Part shown: positions 55 through 17,872 of the stretch, in pieces
Layout of the letters: the number at the start of each line of letters is the position of its first letter
Numbering within the stretch: position 1 is the first letter of the stretch
DNA from: a virus
Virus record (IMG/VR): IMGVR_UViG_3300043595_000047
Coordinates: 1-39,560 of that record
DNA length: 39,560 nucleotides
Direction: 5' to 3' (one strand)
The notes under the pieces: model-generated
The model's input: only the letters and a program-made list of their open reading frames with translations
The model's database searches: none
What the model was told of the DNA's origin: nothing
Made by a program: the position numbers and the translations under genes

Positions 55-363
55 ATGACCGATCTGCACCGGATCCGGATCCACGTCGGCGAGACCGCCT
101 GGTTCACGCGACTCTGGCTCGACGACGTCGAGATGCGGGGTCTCGTGGCCGTCAGCCTCCAGGTCGGCATCGGACCCGATGTGCGCATGGACGAGGAGCC
201 GCTCGTCGTTCTGACCATCGCGCCCAAGGTCGTCGAGGTCGAGGGACAGGCCAGTCTCCACGTCTACGACGACCATGTCCGGCCGCGGCGCATCCGTCCC
301 ACCTGGCTTCGCCGCAGCTGGCGCGAGCGGATCCGGATCGCGTGGGAGGTGCTGCGTGGCTAA
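55..363 (+). CDS. Hypothetical protein, possibly 5'-incomplete
   Basis: Encodes 102 residues from ATG at 55 with no convincing ribosome binding site. The frame is open back to base 1, so the true start may lie left of the window. The protein is rich in beta-prone Val/Ile/Asp segments in the first 90 residues and ends in an Arg/Trp-rich tail (residues 80-102). I recognise no family. Its 3' end overlaps the next gene by 8 bases, which suggests co-transcription and translational coupling with the glycosyltransferase at 356. It may be a structural or accessory protein at the end of an operon that begins outside the window. Confidence 0.6.
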   Translation: MTDLHRIRIHVGETAWFTRLWLDDVEMRGLVAVSLQVGIGPDVRMDEEPLVVLTIAPKVVEVEGQASLHVYDDHVRPRRIRPTWLRRSWRERIRIAWEVLRG

Positions 364-1069
364 CCAGGCGTCGATCTGGTTCATCACTCCCGCCTGGCAG
401 CGCTACGAGCTGACCGCGGTCTGCCTCGAGCAGCGCCGCCGGGTGATCGAGGCGCTCGCCGGCCAGGGCATCGAGGGCCGCTGCGTCGTGATCGCCGACG
501 ACGAGAACCTCGACATCGCGCGCGGGCTGGGCTTCGACGTCGTCGAGCGCGACAACGACGGGCTCGGCCGGAAGGTCAACGACGGCTACGAGTACGCCGC
601 CGGCCAGGGCGCCACCTGGCTCGTCTTCATCGGGTCGGATTCGTGGATCGATCCCGCCTACCTGGCACCGCTGCCGACCGATGGCGCGGCCATCGTGCGC
701 AGCTCGCCGGCGTACTGCGCGGTGACGCCGGACCGCCTGGCGCTGCTGCGCGTCACGCACCCGACGAATCCCGCCGGACCACACCTCTTCCACCGTGACC
801 TGCTGGCGCGCGCCGCCTTCCGCCCGGTCGCCGACGATCTGATGCGCCACATCGACAGCCGCACGAATCGCGCCCTCTCCCCGTTCCGCTGGTCATTCCG
901 CGACGTCCACCCGCTGCAGTACATCGGCTTCCGGGCGCCGCCGATGATCACGCGCTACGACGCGCTCTGGAATCGCTGGGGCATCGCCGAGTACCCCGAC
1001 CCGTGGGCGCTGCTGGCCGAGCACTACCCGGCCGACCTGGTCGCCGCGGCGCGGAAGGTGATCACGTGA
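356..1069 (+). CDS. Glycosyltransferase, GT-A (family 2-like)
   Basis: A 237-residue protein starting at GTG 356, chosen because the beta-strand beginning SIWFITPAW then lies at the N terminus and the overlap with the upstream gene is short. It resembles nucleotide-sugar-dependent GT-A transferases: an N-terminal strand, a VVIADDEN segment near residue 45, a long helix, then a hydrophobic strand ending in an acidic GSDSW turn (about residue 88) where the DxD-like metal site sits. There is no signal peptide or membrane segment, so it should act in the cytoplasm. It shares a GTGA overlap with the nucleotidyltransferase at 1066, suggesting they act together. Donor and acceptor cannot be told. 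Family-level call is moderately firm. Confidence 0.7.
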   Translation: MANQASIWFITPAWQRYELTAVCLEQRRRVIEALAGQGIEGRCVVIADDENLDIARGLGFDVVERDNDGLGRKVNDGYEYAAGQGATWLVFIGSDSWIDPAYLAPLPTDGAAIVRSSPAYCAVTPDRLALLRVTHPTNPAGPHLFHRDLLARAAFRPVADDLMRHIDSRTNRALSPFRWSFRDVHPLQYIGFRAPPMITRYDALWNRWGIAEYPDPWALLAEHYPADLVAAARKVIT

Positions 1070-1467
1070 GGATCCTGACCATCGGCTCGTTCGGCGTCCC
1101 CCATCTCGGGCATGCCGCCTTCCTGCGCGCCAGCGAGCGGTTCGGGACGCTGACCGTCGGTGTCAACTCCGACCGCTTCATCCTCGCCTACCGCGGTACG
1201 GCCGCGCCGTTCACCGAGGAGGAGCGCGTGCGCCTGGTCGCCTCGCTGGGTTACCGGGTGCTGCTCAACGACGGCCCGGGCCGCGCGCTGATCGAGCGCG
1301 AGCGACCCGACGTGCTGACGGTCGGCACCGACTGGGCACGGCGCGACTACCTGGCCCAGATCGAGGTCACCCAGGACGAGCTCGACGAGTGGGGCGTGAC
1401 GCTCGCCTACGTGCCGATGCGACCCGGCGGCATCAGTTCAACGGAGGTCTGGAACCGATGTCGATGA
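1066..1467 (+). CDS. Cytidylyltransferase-like nucleotidyltransferase (TagD/RfaE2 fold)
   Basis: A 133-residue single-domain protein starting at GTG 1066, overlapping the previous stop by 4 bases. It has the hallmark HxGH nucleotide-binding motif (H13-L-G-H16) after a GSFGVPH strand, a VGVNSD segment near residue 37, and a GISST motif at 122-126 equivalent to the (I/T)S(S/T)T signature of glycerol-3-phosphate cytidylyltransferases and heptose-phosphate adenylyltransferases. Its length matches that family (about 130 residues). It should activate a phosphorylated small molecule to its CDP or ADP form. CDP-glycerol is the favoured product because a CDP-glycerol-transferase-like gene lies at 16167, but the substrate is inference. 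Confidence 0.82.
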   Translation: MRILTIGSFGVPHLGHAAFLRASERFGTLTVGVNSDRFILAYRGTAAPFTEEERVRLVASLGYRVLLNDGPGRALIERERPDVLTVGTDWARRDYLAQIEVTQDELDEWGVTLAYVPMRPGGISSTEVWNRCR

Positions 1468-2076
1468 CCCAGTCCCAGGGGCTGCGCTTGATGACGGACC
1501 TGCGCTTCGCCATGGAGCGCTGCCGCTGGCGGTTTCCCCACCGAAAGCTCGATCACTGGGAAGCGGACGCGGAGAAGCTCACCGAGCTGCAGATAGCGGC
1601 AGGCCCGTATGCGTTCCCGGCGCCCAACGACTTCATCACGGGCACGCTCTTCGGCCTGCCGCTACGTCCGTCAAAGGGGGCTTCGTGGCAGCTGGTGACG
1701 GTCGACCTGCTCGGCGTCGAAGACGAGCTCCAGCACGACGTCACCGAGTTGCTCGCTGGGGTCAGCGATACCGAGCCGCCGTCACCCGCGGCTGACCTCT
1801 CTCAGATCGAGGCCGACCTGATGGCACTGGCCCAAAAGCAGCCGGCACTCGACCTCGAGGACGAGCGAGTACGGCACGCCGTACTCGCTCGTCGGGTTCC
1901 CCGACTCCGAGTACATGGCGGTCGCCGCGCAGCTGCGCAAGATCGCCGACCTCTACGAGGCCGGCGAGGTCCACACCAACACGGTCGAGGCCCTCACGCC
2001 TTGCCCAACAGCCGTCTTGCGAATCAGCGTCACCGTCACGAAGCAGGAGGTCCCATGGAAGCTCTCAAATCTCTGA
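1464..2076 (+). pseudogene. Hypothetical gene with a frame switch at a perfect palindrome
   Basis: From ATG 1464 (ATGA overlap with the preceding stop) the frame looks coding to about 1865, then becomes Arg-rich and unnatural. Natural-looking coding resumes in the +1 frame from GAG at 1867 (EYGTPYSLVGFPDSEYM onward) to TGA at 2074-2076. Removing one base, C1866, joins the halves into one reading frame of about 203 residues. Function is unknown. The N-terminal half has Arg/Trp-rich helices, and the C-terminal part has a helix around AAQLRKIADLYEAGEV. Alternatives are two separate genes (the second starting at ATG 1915), programmed +1 frameshifting, or an assembly error. The next gene starts at 2055 inside the restored 3' end. 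Confidence 0.6.
1860..1893. repeat. Perfect 34-base palindrome (16-bp arms)
   Basis: The left arm GACGAGCGAGTACGGC (1860-1875) and right arm GCCGTACTCGCTCGTC (1878-1893) are exact reverse complements separated by AC. The structure lies exactly where the coding frame switches. The unpaired-base test is notable: deleting C1866 both restores the reading frame and breaks the pairing opposite G1887, as expected if a quasipalindrome was perfected by a templated one-base insertion. Confidence 0.9.
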
Positions 2077-2420
2077 CCGCCCCAGCCGTCGAGGCCCCGT
2101 CACCAGCCCAGGAGACGACCAAGCCGCTGAAGCTGTCCGAGGCCATCCGCCTCGGCGCGATGATGACCGAGCAGGCGTTCGGCACCTTCGGCGACCAGGA
2201 ACACACCTGCGGCATCGGCGCAGCGCAGATCGCGCTCGGGCTCACGCCATCCGATGGCGGACCGCTGAATGCGCTGCTGCGGAATGCTCTCGTCACACCG
2301 CCATGCGATCACGACAACCTGTACGGCGGCGACGTTCGCAGCGCGATCATCCACCTCAACGACGACCACCACTGGCCGCGCGAGAAGGTCGCGGACTGGC
2401 TCGAGGGGCTCGGGCTGTAG
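2055..2420 (+). CDS. Hypothetical protein, DUF6197-like
   Basis: ATG 2055 follows an AGGAGG-type site (GCAGGAGG, 2043-2050) at good spacing, which decides the start even though the same frame is open upstream to 1389. The 121-residue product has a flexible Pro/Ala/Thr-rich N terminus (to about residue 28), then a compact domain with EHTCGIGAAQIALGLTP (about 57-75) and a C-terminal LNDDHHW-PREKVADWLE helix. This layout resembles small bacterial and phage proteins annotated DUF6197, whose function is not known. It overlaps the downstream GTG by one base. Confidence 0.7.
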   Translation: MEALKSLTAPAVEAPSPAQETTKPLKLSEAIRLGAMMTEQAFGTFGDQEHTCGIGAAQIALGLTPSDGGPLNALLRNALVTPPCDHDNLYGGDVRSAIIHLNDDHHWPREKVADWLEGLGL

Positions 2421-2734
2421 TGGGCAAGGCGCGACGATCCCGTCCCGCGACCAACGGCACCGAGCCGACGCCGATCCAGCACGCCATCGAGGCGCGCGAG
2501 CTCAAGGCGCAGCCGATGCGGCTCACGCTGGACGCCGCGCCTCAGCCCGTGCGCCTGGCGCTCGACGGCGTCATCACCATCGAGCAGGGCGACGAGGCCA
2601 ACGAGGCGCAACTGCTGGTGCGCACTCGCGATGGCCTGTGGCACGGCGTGCTCTTCCCGATCGGCTCGACCTTCCAGCTCAAGCGCGGCGGCGCAGCGGC
2701 CGCCATCTGGACGCCGCCGGGGGCGAAGCGATGA
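2420..2734 (+). CDS. Hypothetical small protein
   Basis: A 104-residue protein starting at GTG 2420, whose first base is the last base of the upstream TAG stop. The first 25 residues are basic and probably disordered. The remainder alternates beta-prone segments (RLALDGVITIE, AQLLVRTRDGLWHGVLFPIG), suggesting a small beta-barrel. Beta-barrel is inference and no family is recognised. It is coupled by an ATGA overlap to the next gene, so it belongs to the string of small early or accessory genes running from 1464 to 4625. Confidence 0.65.
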   Translation: MGKARRSRPATNGTEPTPIQHAIEARELKAQPMRLTLDAAPQPVRLALDGVITIEQGDEANEAQLLVRTRDGLWHGVLFPIGSTFQLKRGGAAAAIWTPPGAKR

Positions 2735-3120
2735 GCACCACCGAACGACCCACAACGGAAGCGGCGCTGGGCAGGTACGCCGATACGTGGCGACGCGCTT
2801 ATTGGGCACATCGCGAGGTTCCGGGGCGACACCAAAGTGAGTGCTGCCAAGACGCGTGCTGGCCCGACATCGCAGAGCGCGTGGTCGATGAGATCGCGCC
2901 GTCCATCGCTGCCGAGTTGGCTCTCCCCGCCGAACCGACTACACCGCCCGTACTGGACGCCGCGGCTCTGGAGAAGCTGGAACGTGACCTAGCGGCGGGC
3001 TCGGTCGAGGGGATGGGCGACGTGTGGGAGCGACTGCGGGCCATCCTCGATGAGCCGCAGCAGCGTGCTCTGGTCGCCCGTCTCGCTGCCGACACCGATC
3101 CACAGGAGCCGAGCCGGTGA
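2731..3120 (+). CDS. Hypothetical, mostly helical protein
   Basis: Encodes 129 residues from ATG 2731 (ATGA overlap with the gene at 2420). Residues 1-45 include Trp/Tyr/His/Cys-rich sequence (ADTWRRAYWAHREV, then SECCQDACW) that could hold a metal. The remainder is amphipathic helix with a Pro-rich linker near residue 75. It ends in a GTGA overlap with the zinc-ribbon gene at 3117. I recognise no family. Confidence 0.65.
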   Translation: MSTTERPTTEAALGRYADTWRRAYWAHREVPGRHQSECCQDACWPDIAERVVDEIAPSIAAELALPAEPTTPPVLDAAALEKLERDLAAGSVEGMGDVWERLRAILDEPQQRALVARLAADTDPQEPSR

Positions 3121-3335
3121 GCGAGAACGTCTGCCCGCGCTGCAATGGCGAGCGACTGCTCCAGGTTGAGGGGATGCCGGCGGGCGTCCAGGCTGCATGC
3201 CCGGAGTGCGGGGGATCCGGCGTCTACCGCGCGGGATGCCGCTGGCCGCTTACCGACTGCGCTTGCGATCTTCCGGCCGGTGTCGTGGGGACCGATCGGA
3301 TGAGCGACTGGCACTACAAGGGGTGGCGTCCGTGA
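3117..3335 (+). CDS. Zinc-ribbon small protein (DnaJ-type Cys motifs)
   Basis: A 72-residue protein starting at GTG 3117. It contains CPRCNG near the N terminus and CPECGGSG about 25 residues later, the spacing of a DnaJ-like CxxCxG zinc finger, followed by two further cysteines (CRW, CAC). Such proteins are common as small phage genes with unknown partners and probably bind zinc. The gene overlaps upstream by 4 bases and the next gene's GTG by 4 bases. Confidence 0.7.
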   Translation: MSENVCPRCNGERLLQVEGMPAGVQAACPECGGSGVYRAGCRWPLTDCACDLPAGVVGTDRMSDWHYKGWRP

Positions 3336-3679
3336 CCCGCCGCGGCGGCAAGCTCATGCCCGACGCGCAGGCCCTGGCCGACGCCAGCATGACGCCCGAG
3401 GCCGCGTTTCAGGTGCAGGTCGTGCGGCTCCTGAAGCTCCGCGGCTGGCGCACGTTCCACGTCTACGACAGCCGGCGCTCGGAGGCCGGCTTCCCTGATC
3501 TCATCGCGCTTCGTGGCCAGCGCTGCCTGGCGCTCGAGCTGAAGTCGCTGCGCGGACGGGCGACGCCCGCGCAGCTCGAATGGCTGGTCGCGTTCCGCGA
3601 GGTCACCCAGGTCGACGCCCACGTCGTACGCCCGCCGCGCGACGGCGACTGGTCGGAGCTCGAGGAGCTGGTCCGATGA
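3332..3679 (+). CDS. VRR-NUC domain nuclease
   Basis: A 115-residue protein starting at GTG 3332. It matches the virus-type replication-repair nuclease (VRR-NUC) fold of the PD-(D/E)XK superfamily. There is an N-terminal helix (EAAFQVQVVRLLKLRGW), GFPDLIAL with D56, LALELKS with E69 and K71, then RGRATPAQ-x2-WL, where Q81 completes the usual signature. It covers the whole domain and nothing else, as in phage stand-alone versions. The family is found in structure-specific DNA nucleases and in phage replication or recombination genes. Its exact substrate is not predictable here. Confidence 0.85.
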   Translation: MTRRGGKLMPDAQALADASMTPEAAFQVQVVRLLKLRGWRTFHVYDSRRSEAGFPDLIALRGQRCLALELKSLRGRATPAQLEWLVAFREVTQVDAHVVRPPRDGDWSELEELVR

Positions 3680-3786
3680 TCCGCCGCAGGCGCCGCCTCG
3701 CCTCGCTCCTGTTCGGATGCCCCGTCTGCCGCAGGCGATGGACCCATCTCCGATTCTGCCTCTGGACCCGGTCGGTGCCGCGATGA
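3676..3786 (+). CDS. Small basic CxxC protein
   Basis: A 36-residue protein starting at ATG 3676 (ATGA overlap with the nuclease stop) and ending in an ATGA overlap with 3783. It opens with a polyarginine stretch and contains CPVC with a later Cys, so it may form a half zinc knuckle. Support comes from the unbroken chain of 4-base overlaps on both sides rather than from homology. Confidence 0.5.
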   Translation: MIRRRRRLASLLFGCPVCRRRWTHLRFCLWTRSVPR

Positions 3787-4064
3787 AGCCGATCCGCACC
3801 GCTGACTCGAACCTCGTCTACACCGGCCCGCCTGGCGTCGGAGACCTGCACTGCCAGCGAATTGAACCGGGTGTGATCCGGACCGTCTGGCACTTCTCGA
3901 AGTCTGAGCGTGAGGCGATCGCCCAGGGCGCGACGCTGGCGTTGGAGATCTTCACTGAGCCCGTGCCGCCGGTCGGCATGGCGGTCGGCTGGGAGCAGGG
4001 CATCGGCGAGGATGCGCCCGACGTGCTGCCGCGGCTCGAGCAGCTGCAGGACCGCGAGCGATGA
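3783..4064 (+). CDS. Hypothetical protein
   Basis: A 93-residue protein starting at ATG 3783. It has a beta-rich first half (SNLVYTGPPGVGDLHC, VIRTVWHFSKSE), a helix at SEREAIAQGATLALEIF, then a Pro/Gly turn and an acidic C-terminal helix. No membrane segment or catalytic motif is visible and I recognise no family. It overlaps both neighbours by 4 bases and belongs to the same coupled transcript. Confidence 0.6.
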   Translation: MKPIRTADSNLVYTGPPGVGDLHCQRIEPGVIRTVWHFSKSEREAIAQGATLALEIFTEPVPPVGMAVGWEQGIGEDAPDVLPRLEQLQDRER

Positions 4065-4270
4065 CCATCATCTTCGTCGCCTACGCCATCCTCGCCGCGG
4101 CCGCCTGGTGGCTCGGCGGCACGGTCGGCGTCGCGACACTCGCCATCCTGACCGGGCTGAGCGCGCTGGCCATCATCGTCCTGGCCCAGGTGATCGAGGC
4201 CGGTGATGACCGGCGCCAGCGGCGCATCGCGCTGGCTCGGCTGGCCGAGTGGGAGCGCGAGCGCCGATGA
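4061..4270 (+). CDS. Small two-helix membrane protein
   Basis: A 69-residue protein starting at ATG 4061. Residues 2-20 (IIFVAYAILAAAAWWLGG) and about 23-43 (VGVATLAILTGLSALAIIVL) are strong transmembrane segments, followed by a charged cytoplasmic helix rich in Arg and Glu. Similar short proteins occur in many phages, sometimes linked to superinfection exclusion or lysis, but nothing here fixes a role. It is coupled by ATGA overlaps at both ends. Confidence 0.65.
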   Translation: MTIIFVAYAILAAAAWWLGGTVGVATLAILTGLSALAIIVLAQVIEAGDDRRQRRIALARLAEWERERR

Positions 4271-4407
4271 TGCAGCCGACGCCGTGCCACTGCGGCTCAC
4301 CGACTCGCCGGGACCATTGGCACTACCCCGCTTGGCTGCTGCTCGTTGGCGACAGCGCGGTGTGGATGATGCTCGAGCGTTGGTGGGTCCGGAGACGTCC
4401 GCGATGA
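4267..4407 (+). CDS. Small Cys/Trp-rich protein
   Basis: A 46-residue gene starting at ATG 4267 and ending at TGA 4405-4407. It overlaps the upstream stop and the excisionase ATG by 4 bases each. It begins with CHCG, has a short hydrophobic stretch (PAWLLLVGDSAVWMML) and ends with a Trp/Arg-rich tail, so it may associate with membrane. No family is recognised. The call rests on its exact fit in the overlap chain. Confidence 0.5.
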   Translation: MMQPTPCHCGSPTRRDHWHYPAWLLLVGDSAVWMMLERWWVRRRPR

Positions 4408-4625
4408 GCCAGCCCTTCGAGCCGATCGCCATGACGATGCGCGAGGTAAGCGAGCGCCTGCAGATCGGCCGCACCAGCGCCCATCGCCTGGTCAGCTCCG
4501 GCGCTCTTCCCGGCTTCCGGGTCGGCTCGTCGTGGCGGGTCCTGCGCCGGGACTTCGAGGCCTACATCGAGCAGCAACGGGCCGAGGCGGAAGCGGCTTA
4601 CCAGCGAGCGCGGTGCGCGTCATGA
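4404..4625 (+). CDS. xis: Excisionase-like winged-helix protein (HTH_17)
   Basis: A 73-residue protein starting at ATG 4404. The sequence TMREVSERLQIGRTSAHRLV followed by SGALPGFRVGSSWRVLRRDFEAYI is the MerR/excisionase HTH_17 pattern: helix, recognition helix, then a wing with GSSWRV and a terminal helix beginning RRDFEAYIE. Such proteins bend att DNA and direct tyrosine integrases toward excision. The ATGA overlap with the integrase gene makes excisionase the natural role, although a plain regulator of int is possible. Confidence 0.75.
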   Translation: MSQPFEPIAMTMREVSERLQIGRTSAHRLVSSGALPGFRVGSSWRVLRRDFEAYIEQQRAEAEAAYQRARCAS

Positions 4626-5836
4626 TGGATGAGATGGGCGGGCTGCGGCGCGACAAGGGATCCGGCGGAAAGCCGCTCTGGCTCACCGCCGACAAGCGCT
4701 GGCGGGCGACATACACCGACCCGCGCACCGGTAAGCGCGCGGCGGTCTACTCGCGGACCCACGGCCGTGTCGGTGCGCGCGAGGTGTCCAAGCTGCGCGA
4801 CGAGGCGCTGCGTGCCATCGAGGCCGGCCTGAGCCTCGGCGAGGCGTCGCAGACGCTGGCGCAGTTCCTCGAGCGCTGGCTCTCGACGGCCGCCAAGCAG
4901 AAGCTCCGCGCCCGCAGCTGGGAGCGCTACGCCGGCATGGTGCGCCTGCATATCGTCCCGGCCCTCGGCGAGCAGCAGCTCGGCCGGCTGCGGCCGCAGC
5001 ACATCGCCGACCTGTACGCCAGGCTCGCCACGCCGGCCACCGTCACCATCAGCCATGCTCGTTCCACGCGGAACGTCCAACGTGCCATGTCGCCGGCCAG
5101 CATCCGCTACCTGCATGCCGTCCTGCACGGCGCGCTCGAGCAGGCGGTCGCGTGGCGGATCCTCGCGCTCAACCCCGCCGACGGCGTGACGCTGCCGCGG
5201 AAGTCGTCGGGCACCATGACCCCGCTCTCACCGGAGCAGGCGCGCGTCTTCCTGGACGCGATCGTCGGCAAGCCGCTCGAGGCCCTCTTCACATTGGCAA
5301 TCGCCACCGGCATGCGCCAGGGCGAGCTCCTCGGGCTGACGTGGGGCGACGTCGACCGCGATCGCCTGCACGTCCGTCACACGCTGTCACGCATCGGGCA
5401 GCGCTGGTGGCTCGACGATCCGAAGACGCCAGGCAGCAGCCGCGTCATCGAGCTCACGGCGCCGACTGTCGACGCGATCCGCCAGCACCGGCTGCGCCAG
5501 GCGGAGCAGCTGCTGGCCATTGGGCACCGCGTCACCGATGCCGACCTGGTCTTCACCGACGACGCCGGCGCCCCGCTGCACGGTCGCCACGTCACGCAGC
5601 GCGACCTGCCGCGAATCCTCACCGCGGCCGAGCTGCCGCGGATCCGGTTCCATGACCTGCGTCACACCTACGCCACCATCCAGCTGGCGGCAGGCACGAA
5701 CCCGAAGCTGGTCAGCGAGGTCCTCGGCCACAAGGACGTCCAGATCACGCTCGATCGGTACAGCCACTCGCTGCCGACGATGCACCGCGCGGCGGCCGAG
5801 CGGCTCGACGCGATCCTCGGACGAGTGGCGCGATGA
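4622..5836 (+). CDS. int: Tyrosine site-specific integrase
   Basis: A 404-residue protein starting at ATG 4622. It has an AP2-like arm-binding N terminus (about 8-60, beginning with a WRATYTDPRTGKR strand), a SAM-like core-binding domain (about 75-190) and a catalytic domain. Catalytic residues are visible: R232 (ATGMRQGE), K268 (DPKTPGS), H344-xx-R347 (HDLRHTY), H370 (GHKD) and the nucleophile Y380 (DRYSHS). Length and layout are those of phage integrases of the lambda superfamily. It integrates the phage at an attP, for which the repeat-flanked segment at 6244-6459 is the best candidate. Confidence 0.95.
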   Translation: MMDEMGGLRRDKGSGGKPLWLTADKRWRATYTDPRTGKRAAVYSRTHGRVGAREVSKLRDEALRAIEAGLSLGEASQTLAQFLERWLSTAAKQKLRARSWERYAGMVRLHIVPALGEQQLGRLRPQHIADLYARLATPATVTISHARSTRNVQRAMSPASIRYLHAVLHGALEQAVAWRILALNPADGVTLPRKSSGTMTPLSPEQARVFLDAIVGKPLEALFTLAIATGMRQGELLGLTWGDVDRDRLHVRHTLSRIGQRWWLDDPKTPGSSRVIELTAPTVDAIRQHRLRQAEQLLAIGHRVTDADLVFTDDAGAPLHGRHVTQRDLPRILTAAELPRIRFHDLRHTYATIQLAAGTNPKLVSEVLGHKDVQITLDRYSHSLPTMHRAAAERLDAILGRVAR

Positions 5837-6093
5837 GCCAGGCCACCGACGAAACGACGGTGCCGGCCGTCCTCAAGCGGCCGGCGATCCTCGCCTACGT
5901 CGCACAGCTCCTTGCGGCCGGATCGGGGTGGAAGGAAGGCGACGTCCCGCCCGCCCCGCCGACCACGCTGACGCTCTCGCTGCCCGAGCTCATCGGCTAC
6001 ATGAGCGACCCGAACAACCGCGCCTACGTCGCCCGTCGGCTGTCGGTACTGACGGCCAACCGAGACGAGCGGCGAGCGAGGCGTCGGCGATGA
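5833..6093 (+). CDS. Hypothetical protein
   Basis: An 86-residue protein starting at ATG 5833, overlapping the integrase stop by 4 bases. It reads as helix (VLKRPAILAYVAQLLAAG), Pro-rich loop, helix (SLPELIGYMSD), basic helix (RAYVARRLSVLT) and an Arg-rich tail. It could bind nucleic acid, but no family is recognised. An ATGA overlap joins it to 6090. Confidence 0.6.
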   Translation: MSQATDETTVPAVLKRPAILAYVAQLLAAGSGWKEGDVPPAPPTTLTLSLPELIGYMSDPNNRAYVARRLSVLTANRDERRARRRR

Positions 6094-6332
6094 GCGACCG
6101 CGGCGACCTCTTCGGCTCGAGCACGTTCTGCGGCGCAGAGGATCCGGATCAGCCGGGCTGGCTCTGCGTCAAGTCGCCTGGCCACGAGGCGCACGGCTAC
6201 GGCAGGCACCTCTACGGTCAAGGCATTCGGCTCGGTGAGATAACCGATAGGGGTCCAGATAGGGGTCCTGCGAGTCAGTCGCCCCCCACAACGAGGCCCG
6301 ATCCGAGCGTGGATCGGGCCGGGGAGCGCTGA
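6090..6332 (+). CDS. Small protein with Cys/His motif
   Basis: An 80-residue protein starting at ATG 6090. Its centre reads FCGAEDPDQPGWLCVKSPGH followed by another His, the C-x11-C-x4-GH arrangement seen in many small phage proteins that probably bind zinc. Residues beyond about 52 are encoded by the first 29-bp direct repeat and the hairpin at 6295-6320, so the C terminus looks like low-constraint sequence reading through a DNA site. Confidence 0.5.
   Translation: MSDRGDLFGSSTFCGAEDPDQPGWLCVKSPGHEAHGYGRHLYGQGIRLGEITDRGPDRGPASQSPPTTRPDPSVDRAGER
6244..6272 (+). repeat. 29-bp direct repeat, copy 1 (arm-site candidate)
   Basis: This is an exact match to 6431-6459. Each copy contains the 11-mer GATAGGGGTCC twice in tandem with a 12-base period, giving four 11-mers in total. 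Paired direct repeats flanking a short segment beside int are typical of integrase arm-type binding sites. Confidence 0.9.
6295..6320. terminator. Hairpin, 10-bp perfect stem
   Basis: GGCCCGATCC (6295-6304), loop GAGCGT, and GGATCGGGCC (6311-6320) pair perfectly. No T-run follows, so intrinsic termination of the int operon is possible but not certain. It may instead be part of the attachment site structure. Confidence 0.6.
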
Positions 6333-6430
6333 TTTGGTACCGCATACCGGATACGCGGTCTCGCCCTTCGCCTTCGTCGGGGTCGGGTTGCCTGGAACGT
6401 GGCGGGACGAGGGGAACGGCAGAACAGCGG

Positions 6431-6459
6431 CCGATAGGGGTCCAGATAGGGGTCCTGCG
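6431..6459 (+). repeat. 29-bp direct repeat, copy 2
   Basis: Identical to 6244-6272, again with two tandem GATAGGGGTCC units. It ends 2 bases before the ATG at 6462, so it also forms the 5' region of that gene. Confidence 0.9.
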
Positions 6460-6461
6460 GC

Positions 6462-6785: not shown

Positions 6786-6787
6786 AC

Positions 6788-10009: not shown

Positions 10010-11747
10010 CCCGGTGGTCGCCTACGCGGATGCCGTGGTCCGGCGCGACGTCGTCGCAGGGCCCTGGGTGCGCATGGCCGCCGAGCGTCACCTGCGCGAC
10101 CTGGAGGACGGCCACAAGCGCGGCCTTGTCTGGGACCAGGAGCTGGCCGACCGCGGTATCGCGTTCTTCGGCTACCTGCGCCTGCCGGAGGGTGATATCG
10201 GCGAGGACGGTACGGTCGACGGCGATCCATTCGTGCTGCAGCCGTTCCAGCAGTTCATCGTCGGCAGCCTGGACGGCTGGCGCCTCAGCGACGGCAGTCG
10301 GCGCTTCCGAACCGCCTACGTCGAGTCCGGCAAAGGCTCGGGGAAGACGCCGCTGGCAGCCGGCATGGGCATCAAGGGCATCGTGGCCGATGGCGAGGCG
10401 GCCGCCGAGGTCTACACCGCCGGCGTGACGCGCGAGCAGGCCAGCTATCTCCTCCAGGACGGGCGCGCGATGGCGATCGCCTCCAAGGCGCTGCAGTCGC
10501 GCCTCGACATCGCGGCCCACAACATCGCCGCGCCGAAGACAAAGAGCTTCATGCGCGCCGTGAGCAGCGAAGGGCGCAGCCTCGACCAGAAGCGCGTGTA
10601 CATGGCGCTCATCGACGAGATCCACGAGCATCCCACTGGCGACGTCGTCCGAAAGATGCGCGCCGGCGTCAAGAACCGACGCAACGCCCTGATCTTCGAG
10701 ATCACCAACTCGGGCTATGACCGCCACAGCATCTGCTGGCAGCACCACGAGTACTCGACGAAGGTCCTGCAGGGCATCATCGACAACGATTCCTGGTTCG
10801 CGTTCGTGTGTGCCCTCGACGAGGGCGACGACTGGCGCGACGAAGCGGTGTGGCCGAAGGCCAATCCGGGGCTCGGGGTCACGATCCCGCTGCGCTACCT
10901 GCGCGAGCAGGTCGCGGAGGCTGAGGGCATGCCCGCCAACGAGGACCTCGTCAAGCGCCTCAACTTCTGCATCTGGACCGAGCGCTCAGCCGGCATGTTC
11001 GACATGGGGCGCTGGGATCGCTGCGCTGACGAGCCGCAGCTGCGCAAGGGCCAGCGCGTGTGGGCCGGGCTCGACCTGGCGTCCACCACCGACATCGCCG
11101 CCCTGGCCATCATCGCGCCGCGCCCGGGCACCGTGATCGTCGAGCCGGAGCCGGGGCTGCACGAGGAGATGCCCGTCACCCTGCTCGACGTGGAGCTCCG
11201 CTTCTGGGTGCCCGGCGAGGGCGCCAAGCTGCGGGAGCGGCGCGACCACGTCCCATACGCGGAGTGGATCCGCCAGGGCCATCTGACCGCGACGGTCGGC
11301 GACGTCATCGACTACGACGTCATCCGAGCCGCCATCCTCGAGCTCGGCGAGCGCTATGAGCTCGTCGACCTCGGCTTCGACCCATGGAACGCGACGCAGC
11401 TGGTGACGCAGCTCCAGGATGAGGGCGCCACCTGCACCCCGGTTCGCCAGGGATTCGGCAGTCTCTCCGCGCCCACGAAGCAGTTGGACCAGCTGGTCGC
11501 CGGCGCACGGCTGCGCCACGGCGCGAACCCGGTGCTGCGCTGGATGGCGTCGAACGCGGTGGCGGAGACCGACCCCGCCGGGAATATCAAGCCGAGCAAG
11601 AAGCTGTCGACCGAGCGCATCGACGGCATCGCCGCGCTGGTCATCGCGATCGCGCGCTGGATCGATACCCATGCAGATGAAGACGACGGTCCCTCGGTCT
11701 GGGAGCTGCCCGTCAAAGATGGTGGCCGAAGGAGCCTGACGATATGA
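9984..11747 (+). CDS. terL: Terminase large subunit
   Basis: A 587-residue protein starting at ATG 9984, which has GGAG at 9975-9978 five bases upstream. An in-frame upstream start at 9939 is less likely. The ATPase has Walker A G116-KGSG-K121-T122 (ESGKGSGKT) and Walker B ending D211-E212 (VYMALIDEIHE). The C-terminal RNase H-like nuclease begins with GLDLAS-TTD (D364) and has a second acid at LGFDPWN. The length and motifs match terminase_1/HK97-type large subunits that power genome packaging and cut the concatemer. Confidence 0.95.
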   Translation: MAIAAPAADPVVAYADAVVRRDVVAGPWVRMAAERHLRDLEDGHKRGLVWDQELADRGIAFFGYLRLPEGDIGEDGTVDGDPFVLQPFQQFIVGSLDGWRLSDGSRRFRTAYVESGKGSGKTPLAAGMGIKGIVADGEAAAEVYTAGVTREQASYLLQDGRAMAIASKALQSRLDIAAHNIAAPKTKSFMRAVSSEGRSLDQKRVYMALIDEIHEHPTGDVVRKMRAGVKNRRNALIFEITNSGYDRHSICWQHHEYSTKVLQGIIDNDSWFAFVCALDEGDDWRDEAVWPKANPGLGVTIPLRYLREQVAEAEGMPANEDLVKRLNFCIWTERSAGMFDMGRWDRCADEPQLRKGQRVWAGLDLASTTDIAALAIIAPRPGTVIVEPEPGLHEEMPVTLLDVELRFWVPGEGAKLRERRDHVPYAEWIRQGHLTATVGDVIDYDVIRAAILELGERYELVDLGFDPWNATQLVTQLQDEGATCTPVRQGFGSLSAPTKQLDQLVAGARLRHGANPVLRWMASNAVAETDPAGNIKPSKKLSTERIDGIAALVIAIARWIDTHADEDDGPSVWELPVKDGGRRSLTI

Positions 11748-11956
11748 GCCGACTCCGCGCCGTCCTCGACGGCATGAACGATCTTGAAAAGGTGCTCTTC
11801 CCGGCGCTCGCCATGGCGGCCGTCGGCTGGGGCCTGGTGTGGATGCCCCTTGCGCTCATCGTGCCGAGCGCGGTGCTGATCTTCATCGTCCTGCGCGCCA
11901 ATCCCCAGGCGCTCGCCGAGCTCGGGGCGCTGGAAGATGACGAGGTGGCCGAGTGA
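11744..11956 (+). CDS. Small membrane protein
   Basis: A 70-residue protein starting at ATG 11744 with ATGA overlap. Two hydrophobic stretches (LFPALAMAAVGWGLVWMPL and ALIVPSAVLIFIVL) are followed by an acidic tail. It lies between TerL and portal genes, where small hypothetical proteins are common. Its role is unknown. Confidence 0.6.
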   Translation: MSRLRAVLDGMNDLEKVLFPALAMAAVGWGLVWMPLALIVPSAVLIFIVLRANPQALAELGALEDDEVAE

Positions 11957-13530
11957 CCGCCCTGGGCCGCGTGGCGGCCGCGTCATCGACGATCACCTTC
12001 CGCGCCACCGACGAGTTCGCGGTCGAGGCGTTCAACGCCGGCGGCCGCACGGCGTCCGGGATCTCGATCAACGCCAGCTCTGCGATGCGCATCAGCGCCG
12101 TGTACGGGGCTGTCTCGATCATCGCGGAGACGACAGCCGCGCTGCCGCTGCACATGTACGAGAGCCTCGGCGACCAGGGCAAGCGACTGGCGCCCGAGCA
12201 TCCGCTCGACGAGAAGCTGCACGACCAGCCCAACGACTACCAGACCGCGATCGAATTCCGCGAGATGATGACCGCCTTCGCCCTGCTGCGCGGCATGGGT
12301 ATCGCGGAGTCCCGAAAGAGGCGCGGTGGTCGCGACTTCGACCTCATCCCGCTCCACCCCGACTGCCTCAGCCGCGACTTCACGCGCAGCGGCGTCGAGC
12401 GCTTCCGCTATGCCGACCCACACACCGGGGAGACGCGGATCCTGCTGGCCGACGAGCTCTTCATCGTCCGCGGCCGGTTCGGGCGCAGCGTCATCGACTT
12501 CGCGCGCGACTCGCTGGGCCTGGCGCGCCAGATGGACATCTACGCCAGCAACCTCTTCGCCCGCGGCGCGCGCCCGTCCGGAGTGCTGACCCACCAGAAG
12601 CTGCTCAGCCCGAAGGCGCGCACCAACCTGCGCAAGGCGCTCAACGAGTACTCGGCTGGCGGCGACAACGCCGGTCGTCCGATGCTGCTCGAAGAGGGCA
12701 TGACCTGGACGCAGATGCAGATCAGCAACAAGGACGCCGAGTTCCTTGAGAGCCGCAAGTTCAGCGTCGCCGAGATCGCCCGCTGGTTCAGGGTCCCGCC
12801 GCACAAGCTCCAGGACCTCGAGCGCGCCACGAACAACAACATCGAGATGCAGAGCATGGAGTTCGTGGTCGACACGATGGTGCCGTGGTGCGAGCGCTGG
12901 GAGCAGTCGATTCGCCGCGACCTCATCATCGACCGCCGCTTCTTCGCGGAGCACGTCCTGGCCGGGCTGCTGCGGGGCGACACGAAGAGCCGGTACGAGG
13001 CGTATGCCCTCGCCATCCAGTTCGGATGGATGAGCCCGAACGAGGCACGCCGCCTGGAGAACCTCAACCCCTACGCGGGCGGCGACCTCTTCCAGCGTCC
13101 GCTCAACATGGAGCCGATCACCGGCGGCGGCCGCGGGCCGGGCGCGATCGCCTACCTCGACGGCCACAGCGGCAGGGTTATCAGCCTGGCTGACACGACG
13201 CGCGGCTACCTGCGCGCCCTGGTGCGTAGCGCCGTCACACGAGCGGTGCGCAAGGAGGCGGGCTCGATCGCCAAGCTGGCCGAACGCACCGGTGCCTCCG
13301 GCAGCGAGTGGCGCGAGGGCGTGCAGGCCTTCTACCGCGAGCACGCCGAGTTCGTCGCCACCCTGCTGCATCTGCCCGACGAGGCCGCCCAGCAGTACGC
13401 CGTGGCGCGCGCTGAGCGCGTGCTCGAGATCGGCACCGACGCGCTGGCCAATGACTCCGGCTCGATCGACGAGCTGTCAACCCTGTCACTCGAGAGGGCT
13501 GACGTGCTTCGTCTGCCCGCCGCAGCATAA
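11953..13530 (+). CDS. Portal protein (HK97 family)
   Basis: A 525-residue protein starting at GTG 11953 (GTGA overlap). The N-terminal segment SAMRISAVYGAVSIIAETTAALPLHMYE (split around residues 38-65), the FVSRGR-like IVRGRF strand, ARGARPSGVL, and FSVAEIARWFRVPPHKL with ERATNNNIE are the hallmark HK97 gp3 portal signature. It would form the dodecameric ring through which DNA passes and to which TerL docks. The C-terminal ~100 residues (after about 400) are helical and less conserved. Confidence 0.93.
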   Translation: MTALGRVAAASSTITFRATDEFAVEAFNAGGRTASGISINASSAMRISAVYGAVSIIAETTAALPLHMYESLGDQGKRLAPEHPLDEKLHDQPNDYQTAIEFREMMTAFALLRGMGIAESRKRRGGRDFDLIPLHPDCLSRDFTRSGVERFRYADPHTGETRILLADELFIVRGRFGRSVIDFARDSLGLARQMDIYASNLFARGARPSGVLTHQKLLSPKARTNLRKALNEYSAGGDNAGRPMLLEEGMTWTQMQISNKDAEFLESRKFSVAEIARWFRVPPHKLQDLERATNNNIEMQSMEFVVDTMVPWCERWEQSIRRDLIIDRRFFAEHVLAGLLRGDTKSRYEAYALAIQFGWMSPNEARRLENLNPYAGGDLFQRPLNMEPITGGGRGPGAIAYLDGHSGRVISLADTTRGYLRALVRSAVTRAVRKEAGSIAKLAERTGASGSEWREGVQAFYREHAEFVATLLHLPDEAAQQYAVARAERVLEIGTDALANDSGSIDELSTLSLERADVLRLPAAA

Positions 13531-13540
13531 GGAGCTCGCG

Positions 13541-14596
13541 ATGACCCGCTACGCACACATCGCCCGGGCGGTCCTCTCGCGACCGTGGGCGATCAAGAAG
13601 GACTCGGTCGAATGGGCCGCCATCACCGAGATCCTCAGCTCACGCCTTGCCGGTGAACGGTTCAGCGAGGACGAGATCGAGCAGCGCCTGGCGGCTGTGC
13701 CACGGCGTCAGGTCAGCGCACCGTCAAGCGCCGGCGAGGATCGCTACGTCAGCGTCATCCCGATCCACGGCGTGCTGATGCCGCGTGCCTCGCTGATGAG
13801 CGAGATGAGCGGAGGCCAGTCGGTGGCCCAGCTGTCGGCTGCGTTCAACGAGGCAGTGACTGACGACCGCGCCGTGGCCATCGTGCTCGACGTCGACAGC
13901 CCCGGCGGCATGGTCGACGGGATCCCGGAGTTCGCGGCCCAGATCCGCGCCGCCCGCGGCACAAAGCCGATCGTGGCCATCGCGGACACCATCGCCGCCT
14001 CGGCCGCCTACTGGCTGGCCGTCCAGGCAGACGAGGTGTCGGTGACGCCATCGGGCGAGGTCGGCAGCATCGGCGTGTTCAGCGAGCACGAGAGCTGGGC
14101 GAAGTTCTGGGAGACGACCGGCGTCGAGCACACCTACATCAGTGCGGGCAAGTACAAGACGGAAGCCAACGAATATGAGCCGCTGTCCGAGGACGCTCAG
14201 GCACACATCCAGGCGATCGTCGACGACTACTACGGCATGTTCGTCAACGACGTCGCGAAGGGTCGTGGCGTCAAGGCGTCAGAGGTCCGTTCTGGCTACG
14301 GTCAGGGCCGGGTCCTGACGGCCAGCATGGCCAGGGCGGCCGGCATGGTCGACCGCATCGAGACGCTCGGCGCGGTACTCGACCGGCTGAGCCGCTCCAG
14401 CGGGCGCCGCCAGGGCCGCTCGGCACTGGCCGACGTCGGCGGTGTGACGGTCGCGATCGACGAGGTGACCGAGACCTTCACCCAGACCGTCGAGGTCGAG
14501 GTGGAGGACGTCGTCCAGGACACGGCGCCGGCGGCTGCGTTCGAGGTCGAGCTCGAGCGGATCCGAGCGGAGCGTCATCGTCGCAGCCGCGCTTGA
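13541..14596 (+). CDS. S49-family prohead protease
   Basis: A 351-residue protein starting at ATG 13541 with an ideal AAGGAG (13529-13534). It contains the SppA/S49 fold: DVDSPGGMVDG near residue 113, catalytic nucleophile S154 in TIAASAAYWLA, GSIGVF, and general base K204 in the GKYKTEANEYEP segment. It belongs to the Ser-Lys dyad family used by many phages to process scaffold and capsid. The C-terminal ~70 residues are an acidic, Val/Glu-rich then Arg-rich tail that may act as scaffold. The following capsid gene has its own promoter. Confidence 0.92.
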   Translation: MTRYAHIARAVLSRPWAIKKDSVEWAAITEILSSRLAGERFSEDEIEQRLAAVPRRQVSAPSSAGEDRYVSVIPIHGVLMPRASLMSEMSGGQSVAQLSAAFNEAVTDDRAVAIVLDVDSPGGMVDGIPEFAAQIRAARGTKPIVAIADTIAASAAYWLAVQADEVSVTPSGEVGSIGVFSEHESWAKFWETTGVEHTYISAGKYKTEANEYEPLSEDAQAHIQAIVDDYYGMFVNDVAKGRGVKASEVRSGYGQGRVLTASMARAAGMVDRIETLGAVLDRLSRSSGRRQGRSALADVGGVTVAIDEVTETFTQTVEVEVEDVVQDTAPAAAFEVELERIRAERHRRSRA

Positions 14597-14622
14597 CAGT
14601 TACGAACGGGTTTCAGCAGACT
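14593..14622 (+). promoter_or_regulatory. Capsid gene promoter, TTGACA-N18-CAGACT
   Basis: A consensus TTGACA (14593-14598) is followed after 18 bases by CAGACTGCG (14617-14625). The same -35 box, spacing and nine-base -10 block recur at 30713-30745 before the Cro-like gene. The -35 overlaps the protease stop codon. It would give a ~170-base leader before the capsid ATG and allow strong, separate capsid expression. Confidence 0.6.
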
Positions 14623-14726
14623 GCGGCCAATTGAACCAGGCCCCCGCGGCGAGAGGCTCCATCGAGACCCGACGCTCCTGGGCGACACAGTAGGCGACGA
14701 CCCATAGGTCGGACGCGCTGTCAGCT

Positions 14727-14744
14727 CCCTTCACACATGAAGGG
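14727..14744. promoter_or_regulatory. Leader hairpin upstream of capsid gene
   Basis: CCCTTCA (14727-14733), loop CACA, and TGAAGGG (14738-14744) form a perfect 7-bp stem. It sits in the 201-base gap 14597-14797, which otherwise holds the promoter and GAGGAG ribosome site (14783-14788). It may stabilise the capsid mRNA. No T-run is present. Confidence 0.5.
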
Positions 14745-14797
14745 CGCCGGCGGCGCGTTCTGCGTTTCTCCCGGCGCCATCCGAGGAGAAACGACCA

Positions 14798-16105
14798 ATG
14801 GCCCGACTGCTGCAGGTTCTCGAAGCGCGCCAGGGTGCGCTCGAGACCGAAGAGAACGAGATCATCGCCGCGGCCGAAGGCGCCGGCGGCTTCACCGACG
14901 AGCAGCGAGAGCGCCTCCAGGAGCTGCGCGCCGAGTACGGCACTGTCGGTGCCGACATCACCGGCGAACGCGCCCGCATGGAGCGCACGCGTCGCGAGCC
15001 CAGTGCCGCCGGCGACGTCCGCGAGGGACCGATCACGCCGCTCGGCGCGTTCCCGGGCGACTTCGACCCGCGCCCCTACGGGCAGCGCTTCACCGAGGAC
15101 GAGGGCTGGGCCGAGTACGTCGGCCGCGTCGCTCCTCACGGCTTCAGCGCCAACGCGCGCATCGAGTCGCCGAAGATCGACATGGGCGCGGGCTTCGTGC
15201 CCAGCCGTCGACCGCAGGCGGCGATCATCACCTCGGGAAGCTCGAGCGGTGGCGCCCTCTCGATCCCCGCCGAGTCCGGGATCTTCGATCCGGCGACCTT
15301 CCAGCGCGAGCTGACGGTCCGTGACGTCATCCGCACCGGCACGACCGACAGCGACTCGGTCGAGTACGTCCGGGTCCTTGCCTTCTCCAACGCCGCCGCC
15401 GCGGTTGCCGAGGCGGACAGCATCGACCCGACGGACACGACCGGCCTCAAGCCGGAGTCGACGCTGACCTTCCAGCGCGTGCTGGACACGGTCCGCACCA
15501 TCGCCCACTGGCTGCCGGCCACGACTCGCGCCCTCCAGGACGCGGGCCAGCTGCGCACCATCATCGACCAGTTCCTGCGCTACGGGCTGGCCGAGGAGCT
15601 CGAGGATCAGATCGTCTCCGGCAACGGCCAGGGCGAGAACTTCAAGGGCATCCTCGAGTACGACGGCGAAGGCCTGCAGGAGCAGGGCTGGGACACCGAC
15701 ATCCTGACCACGACGCGCAAGGCGCGGACGCTGGTCCGGACGGTCGGCAAGGCGCGCGCCAACGCCTACATGTTCCACCCGAACGACTGGGAGGTCATCG
15801 ACCTCGAGCTCAGCCTCGGCGGCGGCGGGACCAACAACCGACAGGCCGGCGAGATGAGCCCGCCCCGGCTGTGGGGTCTGCCGGTCATCGAGTCCGAGGG
15901 CGTCCCGGAGGGCACCGGCCTCGTCGGCGACTTCCGCCAGGCCGTCCTATGGGATCGGATGCAGACGACCATCCAGGCCTCGAGCGGCGTGGAGAACTTC
16001 TTCCTCAAGAACATGGTCGCTATCCTGGCCGAGCTCCGGGCCGCCTTCGGCGTGATCCGGCCCCAGGCCTTCGTGGCGATCGACACCGAGGCAGCCGGCT
16101 CGTAA
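14798..16105 (+). CDS. Major capsid protein (HK97 fold)
   Basis: A 435-residue protein starting at ATG 14798 with GAGGAG nine bases upstream. Residues 1-75 are a charged coiled coil (LEARQGALETEENEIIAAAE, EQRERLQELRAEYG) typical of the delta-domain scaffold removed by the prohead protease. After a linker, an HK97-type shell domain follows: IDQFLRYGLAEELEDQIVSG, GNGQGENFKGIL, YMFHPNDWEVIDL, PRLWGLPVIES, and a final strand with FGVIRPQAFVAID. It is placed directly after the S49 protease, as expected. Confidence 0.94.
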   Translation: MARLLQVLEARQGALETEENEIIAAAEGAGGFTDEQRERLQELRAEYGTVGADITGERARMERTRREPSAAGDVREGPITPLGAFPGDFDPRPYGQRFTEDEGWAEYVGRVAPHGFSANARIESPKIDMGAGFVPSRRPQAAIITSGSSSGGALSIPAESGIFDPATFQRELTVRDVIRTGTTDSDSVEYVRVLAFSNAAAAVAEADSIDPTDTTGLKPESTLTFQRVLDTVRTIAHWLPATTRALQDAGQLRTIIDQFLRYGLAEELEDQIVSGNGQGENFKGILEYDGEGLQEQGWDTDILTTTRKARTLVRTVGKARANAYMFHPNDWEVIDLELSLGGGGTNNRQAGEMSPPRLWGLPVIESEGVPEGTGLVGDFRQAVLWDRMQTTIQASSGVENFFLKNMVAILAELRAAFGVIRPQAFVAIDTEAAGS

Positions 16106-16126
16106 GCCGGTCCCGCTGAGGGAGAC

Positions 16127-16160
16127 GGGAGAGCCGGCGGATCGCCATGCCGGCTCTCCC
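16127..16160. terminator. 12-bp perfect hairpin after capsid gene
   Basis: GGGAGAGCCGGC (16127-16138), a 10-base loop, and GCCGGCTCTCCC (16149-16160) pair perfectly. It lies 21 bases after the capsid stop and 6 bases before the next ATG. There is no T-tract, so it may be a partial terminator or an mRNA-stabilising attenuator that keeps capsid expression above that of the transferase genes. Its right arm could also occlude the weak ribosome site of the next gene. Confidence 0.7.
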
Positions 16161-16166
16161 ACCACC

Positions 16167-17129
16167 ATGCAGCTAGACGCGCTCGCTACCGAGCCACACT
16201 TTCTCGATCACCTGGCCGCCATCTGGTCCGCGCTTCCGGCGCGCCAGCGCGGCCGCTTCGCCGTGCGGCCCGAGCTTGCCGAGCGCGCTCGATCGCATGG
16301 CATCAAGCCGTCCACGACGTTGACTGGCGGGCAGCGGCCCGTGATCGTGGCGGCCTACGGCGACCTGAAGCGCGCCCGAGCCGCTGGCCGTGAGCGCATC
16401 GCCTTCGCCGAGCATGGCGCCGGCCAGTCCTACAGCAACGACCACCCCAGCTACTCGGGCGGCAAGGACCGAGGCGACGTTGGCCTCTTCCTGGTCCCGA
16501 ACCAGCACGCCGCCGACCGCAACCGTGCCCGCTATCCCGACACGCGGATCGACGTCATCGGCTGCCCGAAGCTTGAGCTGCTGCCGAAGCGCGCGAAGCC
16601 CGAGGACGACCGGCCGACGATCGCGATCAGCTTCCACTGGCAGTGCGGCGTGAGCTTCGAGACCCGGTCCGCCTGGCGCGCCTATCGCAACGTGCTGCCG
16701 CAGCTGGCAAAGACCTACCGCGTCCTCGGCCACGCGCATCCGAAGATGCTCGGCACGGTGCGCCCGTACTACGAGCGCCTCGGCATCGAGGTCGTGTCTG
16801 ACTTCGCCGACGTCTGCCGCCGCGCGGATCTCTACGTGTGCGACAACAGCTCGACGCTCTATGAGTTCGCCTCGACCGGGCGCCCCGTCGTGGTGATGAA
16901 CGCGCCCTGGTATCGGCGCCGGGTCAAGCACGGCCTGCGCTTCTGGGACGCCGCGGGCGTCGGCATCAACGTCGATCGCCAGCAGCAGCTCATCGCCGCC
17001 ATCAAGCGAGGCCTGGCGGATCCGGCAGACGTGCGCCGCGACCGCCAGGCGGCCCTGCGGGTCGCCTACGCCTACCGCACCGGAGCGGCAAAGCGCGCGG
17101 CGACCGCGCTGCTGGAGTGGGCATCGTGA
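16167..17129 (+). CDS. CDP-glycerol glycerophosphotransferase-like GT-B enzyme
   Basis: A 320-residue protein starting at ATG 16167. It resembles the catalytic GT-B region of TagB/TagF teichoic acid polymerases: AEHGAGQSYS near residue 86, VIGCPKLE near 130, GHAHPKM at 188 (H189, H191), and D226-NSSTLYEFASTGRPVVVM, the counterpart of the family's SDxSS motif near the donor site. It lacks a membrane anchor and is shorter than host enzymes. It lies between capsid and connector genes and shares a GTGA overlap with a glycosyltransferase. The acceptor could be virion protein or wall polymer. The donor is inferred as CDP-glycerol or similar. Confidence 0.75.
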   Translation: MQLDALATEPHFLDHLAAIWSALPARQRGRFAVRPELAERARSHGIKPSTTLTGGQRPVIVAAYGDLKRARAAGRERIAFAEHGAGQSYSNDHPSYSGGKDRGDVGLFLVPNQHAADRNRARYPDTRIDVIGCPKLELLPKRAKPEDDRPTIAISFHWQCGVSFETRSAWRAYRNVLPQLAKTYRVLGHAHPKMLGTVRPYYERLGIEVVSDFADVCRRADLYVCDNSSTLYEFASTGRPVVVMNAPWYRRRVKHGLRFWDAAGVGINVDRQQQLIAAIKRGLADPADVRRDRQAALRVAYAYRTGAAKRAATALLEWAS

Positions 17130-17872
17130 CCGTCCTCGTCTCGATGCCCTTCTATGGCGCCCCCGAGCTCCTCGAGCGGGCCGTGCGCTCGGTGCTGGCA
17201 CAGACCCACGAGGACCTGCAGCTGCTCGTCGTGGCGGACGGCGAGGATCCGCCGCTCAGCGGCATCAGCGATAGCCGCCTCGAGGTGTACCGGATCCCGG
17301 AGAACCGCGGCGCATACTTCGCCCAGGCCGTCGCGCTCGGCGCCAACCCGCACGCCTGGTACGCCCCGCACGGCGCCGATGACTGGAGTGACCCGGATCA
17401 CCTGGAGACGCTGCTCTCGGTCGAGGGTGACGCGGTCGCTGCCGGCGCGGTGTGGTTCCACCGAGGCGCGATCGTGTCGGAGCACATCGCCAACTATGAG
17501 GTCGGCGCCTTCGCGACGAAGCGCCTGCGCGAGCTCGGCGGCTACAACCCGGCTGAGCGCATCGGGCAGGACAGTCTGATGCTGCGGCTGCTGCGGCTGA
17601 CCGGCGGCTTCGCCGCCACCAACCGGGCGACCTACCACCGCGTGAAGCGCGCCGGCGCGCTCACGACGGCCCCAGCGACGAAGATCGGCTCGCCGGGTCG
17701 CAATGCCATGCGGCGCCGCAACCGCGCCGTGTGGGCCGCCGTGCGCGGCATGACGGATCTCCGCGAGGTGCGTGCCTACCGTGCGCGCCTGGTGCCGACC
17801 GAGATCTCGGCCGAGGTGGCCTTCCACGTGGAACGTCTCAGCGAGCGACTGGGCCAGGTGGCAGCGGCATGA
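17126..17872 (+). CDS. Glycosyltransferase family 2
   Basis: A 248-residue protein starting at GTG 17126 (GTGA overlap), although GTG 17117 is in frame too. It has a canonical GT2 start: TVLVSMPFYGAPELLERAVR, SVLAQTHEDLQLLVVADGED, ENRGAYFAQAVALG, then the metal-binding turn HGADDWSDPDHLE near residue 90 and a catalytic-base candidate GQDSLMLRLL near 150. The C-terminal ~70 residues are basic. It acts in the cytoplasm and probably works with the phosphotransferase upstream. Donor and acceptor are not predictable. Confidence 0.85.
   Translation: MTVLVSMPFYGAPELLERAVRSVLAQTHEDLQLLVVADGEDPPLSGISDSRLEVYRIPENRGAYFAQAVALGANPHAWYAPHGADDWSDPDHLETLLSVEGDAVAAGAVWFHRGAIVSEHIANYEVGAFATKRLRELGGYNPAERIGQDSLMLRLLRLTGGFAATNRATYHRVKRAGALTTAPATKIGSPGRNAMRRRNRAVWAAVRGMTDLREVRAYRARLVPTEISAEVAFHVERLSERLGQVAAA

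Follow-up and report, generated by a model that had tools for sequence, protein, structure and literature searches.

Why would a phage carry two separate pairs of glycan genes, one of them inside its head operon? The question arises from the window analysed here, the linear IMG/VR virus record IMGVR_UViG_3300043595_000047 with a length of 39,560 bases and 69% GC. Locus A encodes a GT-A (GT2-like) glycosyltransferase (GT; 356..1069, + strand; PF00535 Glycos_transf_2, 1.5e-5) and an HxGH nucleotidyltransferase, i.e. a cytidylyl- or adenylyltransferase (1066..1467, +; PF01467 CTP_transf_like, 3.8e-10). Locus B encodes a TagB/TagF-like GT-B transferase directly 3' of the capsid gene (16167..17129, +; PF04464 Glyphos_transf, 8.9e-8) and a GT2 glycosyltransferase (17126..17872, +; PF00535, 9.4e-10). 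In the following, proteins are named by the start positions of their genes, and TagB denotes 16167, the hallmark of the cassette, together with its relatives. Our analysis suggests that the cassette is with high probability a virion glycosylation system, TagF-like and equipped with a nucleotidyltransferase, which acts at the C-termini of capsid and tail tube proteins.

The four genes are present as described in the initial annotation. The open reading frames (ORFs) 356-1069, 1066-1467, 16167-17129 and 17117-17872 are all open on the + strand and all products score above the curated Pfam cut-offs. A GTGA start/stop overlap had been noted in both pairs. In locus A it joins 356 and 1066 at 1066..1069 (+), as can be read directly from the sequence. 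In locus B the ORFs as listed overlap by 13 nt, the listed start of the GT2 being 17117. Since the GT2 relatives in the loci L129 and L131 begin with MTVLV/MTALV, the GT2 probably starts with the GTG at 17126, and with this start the GTGA overlap with 16167 is restored.

Linkage of the two loci in related phages

At least 127 TagB (PF04464-like) relatives were found in viral contigs and gene maps were drawn for 51 relatives. TagB is located 1.0-11.8 kb from the capsid gene in all 36 loci in which both were recognised. In L131 the interval that separates capsid from tail genes holds homologs of the complete window set in one uninterrupted row (GT2 47%, nucleotidyltransferase 65%, GT-A 45%, TagB 53%), and the same contiguous run is seen in L129 (48%, 69%, 62% and 54%, respectively). 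Because the four homologs are contiguous in these two loci, loci A and B are, as judged by gene order, one system, with the cassette split in the window and whole in relatives. Moreover, PF01467 matches occur in 7 of 48 TagB-bearing records, many of which are fragments, and in 0 of 49 controls (p=0.006); each match lies ≤7 kb from the capsid gene. The initial annotation had likewise treated the two loci as one system, and both do co-occur in relatives.

The individual genes show a similar placement. Homologs of the window GT2 (L140 62%, L136 54%, L131 47%) are found in head-module cassettes in every case, and cultured phages yielded three partial matches only. The 356 family comprises 20 viral relatives, mostly next to terminase, portal, capsid or other glycan genes; its alignment contains invariant ADDEN-L and G(S/T)D motifs, and 356 had no match among cultured phages. 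In the cultured-phage set TagB was found in 1 of 50,697 records, namely Virus Rctr41k (KX853513). A scan of viral contigs with the single sequence of 1066 returned no relative, the back-translated patterns being too narrow, and homologs were recovered by the PF01467 searches.

According to Pfam, the cassettes of relatives contain a broad set of transferases (GT2, GT7C-like, a rhamnosyltransferase-like family, the polysaccharide pyruvyltransferase PS_pyruv_trans and a hexapeptide transferase) as well as synthesis enzymes (Polysacc_synt_2, i.e. a PseB-like 4,6-dehydratase, NTP_transf_3, NAD-dependent epimerase and DegT aminotransferase). S-adenosylmethionine methyltransferases (Methyltransf_24, Methyltransf_11, FkbM), asparagine-synthase-like proteins and WbqC proteins are further members. 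As judged by these families, the cassette functions are sugar-nucleotide synthesis, transfer and capping.

Some observations were made alongside. Prophage-like homologs occur in metagenome-assembled genomes named Chloroflexi, Solirubrobacteraceae and Coriobacteriia. Two tandem TagB copies lie directly 3' of the capsid gene in L006 (8953-11515; G045), the first copy being much diverged. The TagB gene of Rctr41k (L010 22338-23415) is apparently split near its 3' end, where a further short stretch (23276-23389) matches in a different frame.

A C-terminal -(Gly/Ala)-Ser end on virion proteins

Which proteins could be decorated? The HK97-type major capsid protein of the window (14798..16105, +; PF05065 2.2e-37; phrog_10) ends with ...DTEAAGS and is one proposed acceptor. 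The second is the probable major tail (tube) protein (19943..20968, +), assigned by position and homologs and ending with ...LPSASGS. It is encoded between the head completion genes and the tape measure gene (23108-25504), and its homologs in L144, L157, L166 and L167 are all Ser-terminated.

This ending is common in phages with the cassette. In four unrelated capsid clusters 12/13, 11/12, 3/4 and 3/3 capsids end with [GA]S, and so do 13 of 14 tail tubes. In the same phages it is absent from TerL (0/21) and portal (0/15), and it is not found in the nucleotidyltransferases or GT2s either. As a control, 160 contigs from two unrelated capsid families were retrieved by capsid similarity alone, and contigs free of GTs were counted only if enough flanking DNA was available. 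At the first count, capsids ended with -[GA]S in 22 of 22 contigs with a cassette GT versus 1 of 50 GT-free contigs (p=1.3e-17). The sole exception, L238 (capsid -AAS), proved to carry a GT2 ~1 kb from the capsid gene. After its reassignment the numbers are 23/23 and 0/49 (p=2.6e-19), and a GT2 was found nowhere in the records of these 49 contigs. Among the GT-bearing control contigs the tail tube (6/6) and the head protein c12 (10/10) show the same end; the terminase does not in either class (0/48). The association thus favours the virion, which the initial annotation had named as a possible target.

Independent switches on well-supported branches number three in one capsid family and two in the other; counting every branch, there are four and three. 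Each runs in the expected direction, most clearly that of L302 (TagB, -GS), which is nested among L295 and L296 (without TagB, -AP/-TP). Five further records point to TagB itself. G024, G035, G043, G045 and Rctr41k carry TagB without a PF00535 GT2 match, and their capsids end with -GS or -AS. Because TagB is the only glycosyltransferase detected with these models in the five records and the capsids are still tagged, it is the best candidate for the tag-reading enzyme on sequence grounds.

In cassette loci the small head-tail protein c12 (e.g. L137 7137-7511) ends with -[GA]S in 11 of 13 cases, and more virion proteins may be decorated. The window also encodes a large tail protein (25506..29102, +; phrog_38058 tail fiber, 1.5e-6) with the C-terminus ...AYLAS, which is weakly suggested as a possible further acceptor. 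No publication naming a terminal Ser motif surfaced in literature text searches, which did not cover the main Che8 glycosylation study.

Enzyme families and the proposed reaction

The AlphaFold2 (AF2) model of 16167 (320 aa) has a predicted local distance difference test (pLDDT) score of 95.9. By fold alone there is a tie between TagF (3l7m, Z 21.6; 297 residues, 3.5 A) and UDP-GlcNAc 2-epimerase (7vz6, Z 22.2). The profiles are clearer. 16167 reaches 31.9 bits against PF04464 at a curated cut-off of 22.1, and an hmmsearch of the PDB with the 16167 family finds the TagF-like Cps3D (7.9e-4) and TarL (0.034) but no epimerase. Hence profile search and Pfam, which decide for PF04464 where the fold cannot, favour the TagF side for 16167; of the earlier TagB/TagF-like assignment the family profile stands, and the fold is shared between both candidates. 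Conserved in the family are His83-Gly84-x-Gly86, His189-x-His191-Pro192, Asp226-x-x-Ser229 and Glu233. With TagF, TarL and Cps3D the protein has in common the GT-B fold along its whole length (Z 20.0-21.6) and the Pfam match above cut-off. It differs by its size, by an identity of only 12-13% to the solved members, of which the profile finds only Cps3D and TarL, and by an acceptor that is apparently a protein instead of a wall polymer. Cellular relatives of TagB exist in Robertmurraya siralis and Halalkalibacter hemicellulosilyticus (L095 1-17002, L098), where a PseB-like gene is part of the glycan cluster around them; on visual inspection, their neighbours resemble pseudaminic-acid/flagellin glycosylation genes.

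For 1066 the AF2 model (pLDDT 89) matches the folds of Fom1 cytidylyltransferase (5x3d, Z 16.7), TagD (1coz, Z 16.4) and HldC (5xf2, Z 15.1). The HxGH and ISST motifs of these enzymes are retained (HLGH and ISST), although the window subgroup reads GSFGVPHLGH in place of GTFD..H.GH. Motifs and fold place 1066 in the PF01467 superfamily. Model and profile agree on an HxGH cytidylyl/adenylyltransferase, and so the initial assignment to the cytidylyltransferase superfamily stands. Among NCBIfam models heptose-1-phosphate adenylyltransferase (1e-12) ranks before glycerol-3-phosphate cytidylyltransferase (9e-4), both below cut-off. The TagD equivalog TIGR01518 is not reached (19.3 bits, cut-off 165.4); rfaE_dom_II scores higher with 48.1 bits, also far under its cut-off of 181.5. 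A CDP/ADP-type nucleotidyltransferase as described initially is therefore retained. CDP-glycerol in particular is one candidate, with which heptose or another donor is equally compatible.

The enzyme families and folds, the four-gene linkage in relatives and the association of tag and cassette were all computed. From here we infer chemistry, transfer order, donor and decoration in this phage as follows. With CTP or ATP, 1066 would activate a sugar or polyol phosphate and thereby supply a donor. An activated group would be passed by 16167 to the serine that ends the -(G/A)S-COOH-tagged capsid and tail tube proteins, and the GT-A enzymes 356 and 17126 would extend it with further sugars. The predicted sites in the window phage are the terminal Ser of the capsid (...TEAAGS) and of the tail tube (...LPSASGS). 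Because 16167 and 17126 are both encoded inside the head operon, they would be co-produced with the capsid protein. In a broader form of this idea, -(Gly/Ala)-Ser-COOH would be a general address tag on virion proteins that phage-encoded transferases recognise. The TagF-like enzyme would attach a nucleotide-activated (phospho)polyol or (phospho)sugar straight to the terminal Ser, either as phosphodiester or as glycoside, and the phage itself would bring the enzymes that make the donor. We put this broader form forward only tentatively.

Known systems and alternative readings

Virion glycosylation by phage GTs is already known. Passages in PMC12619734 and PMC11256854 report C-terminal glycans on mycobacteriophage capsids and tail tubes, with Che8 among them for the capsid, and both cite Freeman et al. 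2023 for mycobacteriophage virion glycosylation. Moreover, Che8 gp109 falls into GT family c1 of the cassettes of relatives (E 1.2e-34), as do Baka gp16 and Firecracker gp35. The initial remark that no described phage system of this kind was known is hence too strong. The Che8 capsid ends with ...NKTGS and its tail tube with ...QYSDGS, and the capsids of the c1-bearing phages prophiGD102-1, Firecracker, Marvin, Babsiella and GMA2 end with -[GA]S. The capsid of AGM1, 52% identical to that of Che8 and without a c1 match in the phage, ends with ...TAV; those of D29 and TM4 do not end with -[GA]S.

The window resembles the Che8 type by phage-encoded GTs (two of PF00535 type and one GT-B of PF04464 type) and by -(G/A)S ends on both capsid and tail tube (AAGS and SASGS versus TGS and DGS). 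Family c1 is common to Che8, Baka and Firecracker and to many cassettes of the window's relatives. In contrast, the TagB model matches none of the Che8 GTs, which are located near the right genome end, whereas the window has the TagF-like enzyme and the nucleotidyltransferase, no c1 and no GT homologous to a Che8 GT. The window system thus works like the Che8 type, as a variant with a different enzyme set. Rctr41k, from a Methylomirabilis enrichment, is similar in having a TagB homolog (37%) two genes 3' of the capsid/protease gene, but its record contains no PF00535 GT2 or PF01467 match.

Several points weigh against virion glycosylation in this form. Locus A is situated in the early region, ~15 kb from locus B. 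The window lacks a c1 match, while 24 cassette GTs in relatives have one. The capsid of the c1-bearing Baka ends with ...PSF, its tail tube in Ser. With five well-supported one-way switches (seven in all) a sign test is weak once corrected for descent, and the GT-plus status was assigned by models built from the cassettes themselves.

The initial annotation proposed that 1066 makes CDP-glycerol and 16167 places glycerol phosphate on virion or envelope. The PF04464 score of 16167, its profile matches to Cps3D and TarL without an epimerase, TagD as second-best fold match of 1066 and the presence of nucleotidyltransferase and TagB in the same cassettes would all agree with this. We nevertheless consider it unlikely, as NCBIfam prefers the heptose enzyme to TagD for 1066, the three matching folds lie within 1.6 Z units, and a nucleotidyltransferase of this kind was not seen in 41 of the 48 records with TagB (many of them fragments), so that the donor may often be host-derived. 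Alternatively, the enzymes could change surface glycans of the host and block superinfection by lysogenic conversion. The phage is temperate-like with a tyrosine integrase (4622-5836), locus A is an early-region locus, and the cellular TagB homologs from Robertmurraya and Halalkalibacter reside in glycan clusters. Modification of the host envelope is improbable, since almost every relative has the cassette within the head operon and since a virion-protein tag tracks the cassette in the control set.

We give hardly any credence to a role in DNA hypermodification, with transferases acting on modified bases as proposed for Bacillus phage SP-15. There, gene 151 carries the annotation CDP-glycerol glycerophosphotransferase and lies inside a base-modification cluster (PMC5977210), and the SP-15 protein turns up in the viral fold search. 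Like 16167 it is a phage-borne PF04464-type protein among sugar genes, but its proposed role is in base modification, and similarity to 16167 is not detected at tblastn E≤1e-4. The window has no match to PF12851 or PF00303 (base hydroxylase/hydroxymethylase). Of 49 relatives, one has a Tet_JBP match above the cut-off, besides which a single weak match was seen, and two have a member of the thymidylate-synthase family. Moreover, DNA hypermodification would leave the C-terminal tag unexplained. G037 (36062-36556) is the TagB-bearing record with a Tet_JBP dioxygenase above the family cut-off and may modify its DNA too.

Window context and meaning

Apart from the cassette, the window contains integrase, terminase, portal, protease, capsid, tape measure and recombination/replication genes. 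A circularity check found no exact terminal repeat, and PADLOC gave no match to defence systems. The base composition is uniform along the window and gives no sign of a chimera at locus A, though the record may still be one. A ParB-like partition protein (35723-37072) is encoded alongside the tyrosine integrase, perhaps reflecting a plasmid-like prophage state. An ORF that by eye is HNH-endonuclease-like (22593-23081) lies between the tail chaperone region and the tape measure gene.

New elements here are the TagF-like hallmark enzyme, the phage-borne donor synthesis, the wide presence in uncultured phages and, probably, the -(G/A)S tag tracking the cassette. What had been scattered phage sugar genes can now be tested as one system, for which an acceptor site is predicted. 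Virion glycosylation, so far known from a small number of cultured phages, is probably frequent in uncultured ones and not confined to mycobacteriophages. If the two-residue end tag holds true, glycosylated capsids and tail tubes would be predictable from sequence, for which mass spectrometry has been needed so far. Likewise, the TagF-like enzyme would, if true, represent a new protein-modifying use of the teichoic-acid enzyme fold.

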